Position numbers and translations under genes: made by a program. A stretch of DNA of 42,853 nucleotides. Source: Bacteroidales bacterium (lineage in GTDB: Bacteria > Bacteroidota > Bacteroidia > Bacteroidales > Muribaculaceae). Positions 1 through 41,409 of this stretch are shown in pieces (the first letter of the stretch is position 1; each line of letters starts with the position of its first letter). Location of the stretch: NCBI GenBank assembly GCA_014800515.1, contig JAAVFY010000007.1:1-42853 (forward strand), written 5' to 3'. Below the pieces are notes generated by a model. That model was not told the DNA's origin. It saw only the letters and a program-made list of their open reading frames with translations, and did no database searches.

Positions 1-118
1 AGCGAGCTAAGCGACTGAGTGACAAGGTCAAGATGACCAAAATTAGCCGCATATATCATATTAAGATACTTTCAAAGCTACTGAGTTATTATATCGTTTA
101 ATTTTTCTTAGCTACTTA
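1..118 (+). repeat. MITE-like dispersed element, copy 1 (truncated by window start)
   Basis: Matches the right ~118 bp of the ~196-bp element seen at four other sites and ends in TTTAATTTTTCTTAGCTACTTA. Confidence 0.93.
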
Positions 119-154
119 AGTGCAAATACAATACTATCAAAGCATCTTAGGATT

Positions 155-7211: not shown

Positions 7212-7415
7212 TAAGTAGCTAAGAACAATTAATAATATGATAGATGCGCGATAATTTTGAGTCAGGTTGGCTGCGGAGCGAAGGAGCTTGGCGAGCTAAG
7301 CGACTGAGTGACTGAGTGACAAGGTCAAGATGGCCAAAATTAGCCACATATATCATATTAAGATACTTTCAAAGCTATTGAGTTATTATATCGTTTAATT
7401 TTTCTTAGCTACTTA
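7212..7415 (+). repeat. MITE-like dispersed element, copy 2 (8-bp internal tandem duplication)
   Basis: Full-length copy with both terminal inverted repeats; 204 bp because actgagtg is duplicated (gactgagtgactgagtgac). Confidence 0.95.
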
Positions 7416-20269: not shown

Positions 20270-20464
20270 TAAGTAGCTAAGAAAAATTAATAATATGATA
20301 GATGCGCGATAATTTTGAGTCAGGTTGATCGCGGAGGTAAGGAGCTTAGCGAGCTAAGCGACTGAGTGACAAGGACAAGATGGCCAGAATTAGCCGCATA
20401 TCTCATATCAAGATACTTTCAAAGCTATTGAGTTATTATAGCGTTTAATTTTTCTTAGTACTTA
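20270..20464 (+). repeat. MITE-like dispersed element, copy 3 (inside the que operon)
   Basis: 195-bp copy with both termini (right terminus TTAGTACTTA lacks one C); lies between queD and queE. Confidence 0.94.
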
Positions 20465-36189: not shown

Positions 36190-36385
36190 TAAGTAGCTAA
36201 GAAAAATTAATAATATGATAGATGCGTGATAATTTTGAGTCAGGTTGGCCGCGGAGCGAAGGAGCTTAGCGGGCTAAACGACTGAGAGACAAGGTCAAGA
36301 TGACCGAAATTAGCCGCATATATCATATTAAGATACTTTCAAAGCTACTGAGTTATTATATCGTTTAATTTTTCTTAGCTACTTA
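36190..36385 (+). repeat. MITE-like dispersed element, copy 4
   Basis: 196-bp full-length copy with perfect ~20-bp terminal inverted repeats. Confidence 0.96.
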
Positions 36386-39874: not shown

Positions 39875-40543
39875 ATGAACAATCATAAAATCGAACTTCA
39901 GGTGCCGGTGCAGACTGGAATTATTCTGCCTGAGCCTACGCTGCGGCGTCTGCCGTGGTATCTTGCCTATATAGACATACTGTATGCGCAAGGTACCGGC
40001 CACGTGAGTTCCACTCAGATATCCCGCGCCCTCAACGTAGATGCATCTCAGATAGCTAAGGATCTCTCCTTTCTTTCGATAAAAGGGAAAACCCGTATCG
40101 GATATGACGTGGCGCAGCTGCGTGACATTCTTGCCGACTTCCTCGGATTCCGCGTGAGCCATAAGGCTCTCGTCATCGGAGCCGGGAGTCTGGGACGGGC
40201 TTTGATGTGCGACACCGGTCTCTCCACCTACGGGCTTGACATAGCAGCGGCTCTCGACATAGACACCGCGCTTGTCGGCACGGAGGTAAACGGACGGCCG
40301 ATATGCCACATCGACGATATCGAGGAAGTGGCACAGACCACCGGAGCTGTCATAGCAATCCTGACGGTGCCTTTCGAAGTGGCTCAGGAGGCGGCAGACA
40401 TCGCTATCTCCGCCGGCATTAGAGCCATCTGGAATTTCACTCCCTATCGCGTCAAGACCGCCGAGGGAATAGTAATGGCCAATACCTCCATATATGCTCA
40501 TCTTGCAATGATTTACAACAGGCTTGAAAATCTCAATCGTTAA
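39875..40543 (+). CDS. rex: Redox-sensing transcriptional repressor Rex
   Basis: PEPTLRRLPWYLAYIDIL; VSSTQISRALNVDASQIAKDLSFL; ALVIGAGSLGRAL Rossmann motif. Confidence 0.94.
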   Translation: MNNHKIELQVPVQTGIILPEPTLRRLPWYLAYIDILYAQGTGHVSSTQISRALNVDASQIAKDLSFLSIKGKTRIGYDVAQLRDILADFLGFRVSHKALVIGAGSLGRALMCDTGLSTYGLDIAAALDIDTALVGTEVNGRPICHIDDIEEVAQTTGAVIAILTVPFEVAQEAADIAISAGIRAIWNFTPYRVKTAEGIVMANTSIYAHLAMIYNRLENLNR

Positions 40544-40592: not shown

Positions 40593-41216
40593 GTGATGAA
40601 AGCAATAGCAGTAGTCAACAATCATCGACTCTCCCCCGATAGCAAGACGGAGAGCAGCCATATCTCTCCCTCTCTGATTGATATTCCCGATTCATGCCTG
40701 ATACGCAGCGGGAAACCATTCTTCATTCCGGAGTTCGACTCTGACTTTCGGGCATACCCCTCGATTGCAGTGAGAATTAACAGACTCGGAAAGTGTATCG
40801 CGCCTGTTTTCGCTCCCCGTTATTGGGGTGAACTGACAGGAGCGGTCAGCATACGGGGTGAGCAGACTCTGGGCAGGCTCAGGGCAAACGGACTGCCATG
40901 GTCGGAAGCTCTTGTGTTCGACCGTTCGCTGATAGTGGGCGATCTCGTCGGCAAGGATTCGCTCCCGGAGCAGTTCAGCTTACTGACCGTATGCGGCGAT
41001 AAGACTATCTCAATATCGGAGATTGATTTGGCAGAGTCGATCGACATGACAATTTCTCGTGTGAGCCGGCATAACACTGTGCGTCAGGGCGACTTCATTC
41101 TCGTCGGGCTCGCTCCCGAGGGTATTCCCCTCTCCGCCCCTTCGCGTCTCACCATGTCTCTCGTCGATAAAGAGGGGAAAGAGATTATGCCATTGCTCTC
41201 CAACAATATCAGATAA
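40593..41216 (+). CDS. Divergent fumarylacetoacetate-hydrolase-fold protein, probably catalytically inactive
   Basis: GKPFFIPEFDSDFRAYPSIAVRINRLGKCIAPVFAPRYW...GLPWSEALVFDRS parallels FAH-family proteins; metal-ligand acidic residues appear absent. Confidence 0.7.
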   Translation: MMKAIAVVNNHRLSPDSKTESSHISPSLIDIPDSCLIRSGKPFFIPEFDSDFRAYPSIAVRINRLGKCIAPVFAPRYWGELTGAVSIRGEQTLGRLRANGLPWSEALVFDRSLIVGDLVGKDSLPEQFSLLTVCGDKTISISEIDLAESIDMTISRVSRHNTVRQGDFILVGLAPEGIPLSAPSRLTMSLVDKEGKEIMPLLSNNIR

Positions 41217-41409
41217 GTAGCTAAGAAAAATTAATAATATGATAGATGCGCGATAATTTTGAGTCAGGTTGGCCGCGGAGCGAAGGAGCTTAGCGAGCTA
41301 ATTGACTGAGTGACAAGGTCAAGATGGCCAAAATTAGCCGCATATATCATGTTAAGATATTTTCAAAGCCACTTAGTTATTGTATCGTTTAATTTTTCTT
41401 AGCTACTTA
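41214..41409 (+). repeat. MITE-like dispersed element, copy 5 (supplies upstream stop codon)
   Basis: 196-bp full-length copy; its leading TAA is the stop codon of the FAH-like gene. Confidence 0.96.

Follow-up and report, generated by a model that had tools for sequence, protein, structure and literature searches.

A putatively IS630-mobilised MITE at the stop codon of an FAH-like gene in a Muribaculaceae genome, and the hairpin at its apex

When a mobile element supplies the stop codon of a gene, has it shortened the gene, was it drawn to the stop, or did it land there by chance and leave the protein as it was? This question is raised by an FAH-like open reading frame (ORF) in a 42,853-nucleotide stretch of a Muribaculaceae genome (hereafter the window), whose last codon lies inside a short repeat. 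The window forms the start of a 117-kb contig in a 2-Mb draft genome (81% complete) and holds five copies of the repeat, the fifth at the stop codon. We consider it very probable that the repeat is a MITE mobilised by an IS630-family transposase, that it entered at a TA and thereby restored the stop, and that purifying selection, with no preference for stop codons, shaped where its copies are found. The grounds for this account are observations: the sequence at the stop, the TA and inverted ends, the match to IS630 ends, the absence of copies from genes, the C-termini of orthologues and the lack of enrichment at stops. The features concerned are listed below in window coordinates.

1..119, + strand: MITE copy 1, incomplete because the contig begins within it
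7212..7415, + strand: MITE copy 2, carrying an 8-bp internal duplication
20270..20464, + strand: MITE copy 3
36190..36385, + strand: MITE copy 4
39875..40543, + strand: Rex-like redox repressor gene (PF06971, PF02629), upstream of the FAH-like ORF
40593..41216, + strand: FAH-like ORF, with GTG at 40593 and ATG at 40596; its stop codon lies inside MITE copy 5
41214..41409, + strand: MITE copy 5, 196 bp including terminal TAs, 94% identical to copy 4, with 21-bp inverted ends
41214..41216, + strand: TAA stop of the FAH-like ORF, made of the target TA and the element's first base
41214..41234, + strand: left terminal inverted repeat TAAGTAGCTAAGAAAAATTAA, with stops in 3/3 frames within 11 nt
41281..41310, + strand: apex hairpin of copy 5, CGAAGGAG-(stem-loop)-TGACTGAG, with tandem G.A motifs; outermost stem pair broken (C-T)
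41389..41409, - strand: right terminal inverted repeat, reverse complement of the left; the right end reads ...TTAATTTTTCTTAGCTACTTA
41408..41409, strand not applicable: second copy of the duplicated TA; A41410 follows, giving a pre-insertion codon TAA
41487..42853, + strand: start portion of the downstream gene, 77 bp 3' of MITE copy 5 and running past the window

A short repeat bounded by TA

The repeat occurs far beyond chance. An 18-base motif from its end, allowing up to 2 mismatches, matched 278 times across the 2-Mb genome (136 on one strand and 142 on the other), and the reversed control motif gave 0 matches in the same sequence; from the strand counts, the genome therefore contains ~140 copies. 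Full copies measure ~196 bp, share 90–97% identity with copy 4 and fold into a single long hairpin (z ~ -8 for the RNA of copy 4 and ~ -9 for the DNA of copy 5). As a short element (196 bp) with 21-bp terminal inverted repeats and no transposase gene, the repeat has the make-up of a MITE.

Of the 67 full copies for which both flanks could be read, 58 carry a TA at each end, and two tandem pairs of copies each overlap by exactly 2 bp. Both patterns fit insertion at a TA target. Together with ends that match those of IS630, a TA-targeting family, they support the model of the initial annotation, by which the MITE would insert at TA and duplicate it.

Several other properties of the copies were noted. 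In 21 of the 67 full copies (e.g. C10:17053, C12:4229, C29:4784), the right end is followed by a further 8 bp (GCTACTTA), whereas the corresponding unit flanks the left end in no more than 4 of 67; the asymmetry possibly goes back to a source copy whose right end had been doubled. A further MITE subfamily of this genome, with TAAGTAGCTGCTCAAATT ends and the stem CGATGC/GCATCG, occurs at L007:1711–1916, near a first-subfamily copy. On two contigs, a 2.3-kb segment with 99.6% identity (C47:1–2288, C58:2171–4459) stops exactly at an element end, beyond which the contigs diverge, reflecting recombination between copies, a strain mixture or a misassembly. Partial copies (36) lie at the ends of sampled stretches, many of which are contig ends, including window position 1, and the repeat appears to break the genome assembly.

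The FAH-like gene, its stop codon and the choice of insertion sites

The 3' end of the FAH-like ORF (40593–41216) reads AAC AAT ATC AGA TAA in frame, with T41214, A41215 and A41216 as the stop. These are also the first three bases of the element, which opens TAAGTAGCTAAGAAAAATTAA, just as the initial annotation had stated. It had further proposed that insertion regenerated the stop, which the right flank bears out: an A (41410) follows the right-hand TA, so the codon before insertion would have been TAA. Removing the element and one TA in silico joins ATC AGA TA to A GTCGCC, an in-frame TAA, and the locus before insertion is predicted to read ATCAGATAAGTCGCC. An A likewise follows the right-hand TA in C20 and C70, the two remaining full copies that exactly provide a gene's stop, and their stops would thus have been TAA as well. 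No DNA-level match to the copy 5 locus outside the element was found in the genomes tried, where the closest orthologue has 49% protein identity.

The proposed course of events is that the non-autonomous MITE, moved in trans by an IS630-family (Tc1/mariner-type) transposase, landed on the TA of the existing TAA stop. The duplicated TA and the element's first base, A, would then have rebuilt TAA and left the protein unchanged. The reading of such an insertion as nearly neutral is right for copy 5, where the stop was restored, and the locus shows cleanly that a TA-targeting element can enter the end of a gene and leave the protein unchanged.

Had the insertion truncated the gene, the present stop would be premature. 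Orthologues of the FAH-like protein were found in 103 of the 111 genomes of the genus, and 18 of 19 aligned homologues end at the position that aligns with the last residue of the window protein (the remaining one, from a locus with a read-through frame, runs further). Their C-termini carry a short tail of the form hydrophobic-x-V/I-K/R right before the stop, to which NNIR of the window protein conforms. The gene is not truncated, as the initial annotation had expected, because its orthologues end at the same place with the same type of tail. Truncation could draw on the poor alignment of the C-terminal 20 residues with orthologues and on the diverged nature of this FAH relative; set against the shared end point and tail in 18 of 19 homologues and the TAA at the same place in the reconstructed pre-insertion sequence, it is very unlikely.

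The name of the gene itself needs qualification. A remote relationship to FAH stands, with a match to PDB FAHD1 at 5.5e-7; membership of the curated Pfam family FAA_hydrolase does not, as the window protein scored 16.8 bits against a cut-off of 23.9 (E=0.0055). Three homologues (L032, L045, L060) pass that cut-off. These comparisons support the view of the protein as a diverged, remote FAH relative. By inspection, it and L032 are missing residues that the family usually has: they have YPSI where L060 has YELE, and lack TARD; the two may possibly belong to a pseudoenzyme clade of the genus.

Is the element drawn to stop codons? For the count, genes were predicted in 1.31 Mb of the genome's sequence by a simple home-made caller based on hexamers; of 172 insertions, 164 have an intact end. 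Although 77% of TA sites are coding, genes contain none of the 94 MITE copies that exceed 150 bp. Of the TA sites that tolerate insertion (intergenic ones and those within a stop codon), 3.0% fall in a stop codon. The element's TAA serves as a gene's stop in 5 of the 164 insertions versus 4.9 expected (95% range 0.3 to 2.3 fold, compatible with a modest bias in either direction; two of the five represent one gene on two contigs). Two further copies were entered in the second frame, and there the gene ends at the element's TAG. The enrichment at stop codons that the initial annotation had suggested looking for was thus not observed. Chance and selection against gene disruption therefore predict the stop landings seen; such landings are ordinary events at the level of chance, and the count requires no special targeting. 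The location of copies would be set by purifying selection against insertion into genes, with no preference for stop codons. Orientation relative to flanking genes gave no convincing bias (22 versus 14 in tandem settings; 30 versus 26 gene ends entering the left or right end).

One property of the element could nevertheless speak for an attraction to stops. Its end (TAAGTAGCTAA) closes all three frames within 11 nt, as do 1% of composition-preserving shuffles, so that a gene entered near its 3' end would be terminated within a few codons, whatever the phase. An end of an autonomous IS630 element (TAAGTAGTTGCTAAAAATTAATGT) has stops in 3/3 frames within 15 nt (by inspection), and the three-frame stops of the MITE are inherited and not special, because this autonomous end has them too. 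An element that targets stop codons, or is selected there because insertions are neutral or its ends serve as stops, would account for the several copies at stops and for an end so rare among shuffles. Against this reading stand the count itself (5 of 164 versus 4.9 expected at tolerated TA sites), an alternative end among relatives (TAAGTAAGTG...) that lacks an early stop in the third frame, and the likeness to autonomous IS630 ends, by which the stops were inherited and not selected for that purpose; we regard it as highly improbable. Chance landing under purifying selection is the reading that we retain.

Relation to IS630 elements

We surveyed 111 genomes of the same genus for transposases with PF13358. 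Genes of the IS630 family were detected in 22 of them (17 above the curated cut-off). The insertion sequences are ~1.1 kb long, with ends such as TAAGTAGCTACTAAAAATTAATGTACAT and TAAGTAATTCAGAAAAATAAATGAACAT. Compared with nine scored IS630 ends, the MITE end is identical at 17–20 of 22 positions, a level that 0 to 0.02% of shuffles reach. The best match (L137, end TAAGTAGCTACTAAAAATTAATGTACAT) agrees at 20 of 22 positions and was equalled by 0 of 5000 shuffles; the others agree at 17–19 of 22. Over 22 bp, this IS630 end shows no difference from that of a related MITE (L072) in another genome. Within the genus, the MITE ends thus match those of an autonomous element with an IS630 transposase. 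In the window's own genome we found no intact IS630 bearing the exact MITE end (TAAGTAGCTAAG); the IS630 remnants there are L130, which has an internal deletion, and L131, which a contig end interrupts. The likeness to six IS630 elements of the genus (L133, L137, L138, L140, L154, L155) lies in the termini (17–20 of 22 positions where scored) and the terminal TA, whereas these elements differ in their length of ~1.1 kb, their DDE_3 transposase and their lack of an apex hairpin module. We infer from the ends that the MITE is mobilised in trans by an IS630-family transposase, and file it as a probable IS630/Tc1-mariner-type MITE.

A comparable relationship has been described in the pneumococcus, where RUP, a short intergenic MITE with ~100 copies and a TA target, has IS630-Spn1 as its proposed mobiliser through matching ends (PMC2229807). 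The MITE studied here resembles RUP in its short length, intergenic sites, TA target and IS630-matching ends. RUP differs in size (107 bp), in its 9-bp inverted repeats, in the phylum of its host and in having no reported structural motif, in contrast to the conserved apex hairpin here. Correia/NEMIS elements of Neisseria and other bacterial MITEs likewise have a terminal TA and inverted repeats, some with stops in all frames (PMC2229807); the Correia/NEMIS elements have these features in common with ours, and we claim no relation in sequence.

Many intergenic, palindromic copies with GTAG close to the end would also be expected of a REP/REPIN-type element moved by a RAYT tyrosine transposase. 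A length of 196 bp, 21-bp terminal inverted repeats, TA on both sides and ends that match IS630 argue against such an origin, as does the fact that reports of GTAG REPs cover other phyla and not Bacteroidetes (PMC3733652). We consider a REP/REPIN origin extremely improbable. Read as an IS630-type MITE, the element belongs to a known kind; what is unusual about it is the apex module that it shares with other elements.

The apex hairpin

The conserved hairpin at the tip of the element is common to unrelated mobile elements of Bacteroidales, and is less ordinary than the event at the stop codon. Its consensus is CGAAGGAG-(5-bp stem, 4-nt loop)-YGACTGAG. Drawn as a helix, it has two tandem G.A motifs with two standard pairs between them, and the TAAGTA families have a third tandem G.A motif outside these two. 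In 51 diverse examples, gathered with a pattern in which the two middle pairs, a stem and the G.A positions were obligatory, all eight G and A positions are invariant. Of the 17 standard pairs, 16 show changes in both partners, with 184 covarying cells versus 57 in shuffles and 36–60 when the partner strand was slid. The outer nine pairs, which lie outside the search pattern, covary as well. Rfam gave no match at the gathering score, and its weak matches (E 0.14, 2.6), to a plant miRNA and a snoRNA family, are attributable to chance. A hammerhead ribozyme or a kink-turn was rejected by reasoning only, as the conserved bases do not fit.

A scan of a genome collection of 84,980 species placed the motif, among the matches listed, mostly in Bacteroidales. 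It occurred 273 times in 2.48 Mb, part of which had been chosen for the motif, versus no match in shuffled DNA. Of 247 genomes drawn from across the order, 13 contain the apex according to a covariance model (E<=1e-4). None of the IS630 loci L130–L159 carries it. Its surroundings are inverted-repeat elements with unrelated ends (TAAGTAAGTG..., AGAGGTTGTTTAAAAAC..., GGTAACCTCTAAAAATT..., GGGCGGTTCTAATAATTCTG..., CCCCATCCCACAAAAAATGTTAA...) and target duplications of TA, TNA or 4 bp (flanks read by eye). MITE-like elements of Duncaniella muris (L254, L265) and Prevotellamassilia (L252) share the hairpin CGAAGGAG-(stem)-YGACTGAG with covarying stems. Such apex-bearing elements of Bacteroidales differ from the MITE in their unrelated termini, other target duplications (TNA, 4 bp) and lengths of about 155–330 bp. 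Unrelated ends with different target duplications presumably imply different transposases. Open-access searching found no literature on Bacteroidales MITEs or this hairpin, which is weak evidence of absence.

What might the hairpin do? Among the copies in the window's genome, we sought and did not see a lower divergence of the core (0.033, versus 0.023–0.030 in the arms). That the core is no more conserved than its surroundings speaks against a role at every place of insertion and in favour of a role in the source element. We think that the apex serves the element's own spread. In its fuller form, this idea makes the apex a portable structural module under selection that acts in the multiplication of the element, where a host factor would recognise it as RNA or as single-stranded DNA, and not in host gene control; we give it an even chance. 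If the apex is functional, MITEs of different transposases would depend on a common host-facing structure, providing a testable clue to the very high copy number of MITEs in gut Bacteroidales. Elements of 320 bp with AGAG[GC]TTGTTTAA ends (L254, L265, L319, L345) have one apex hairpin on each strand, the two pointing in opposite directions.
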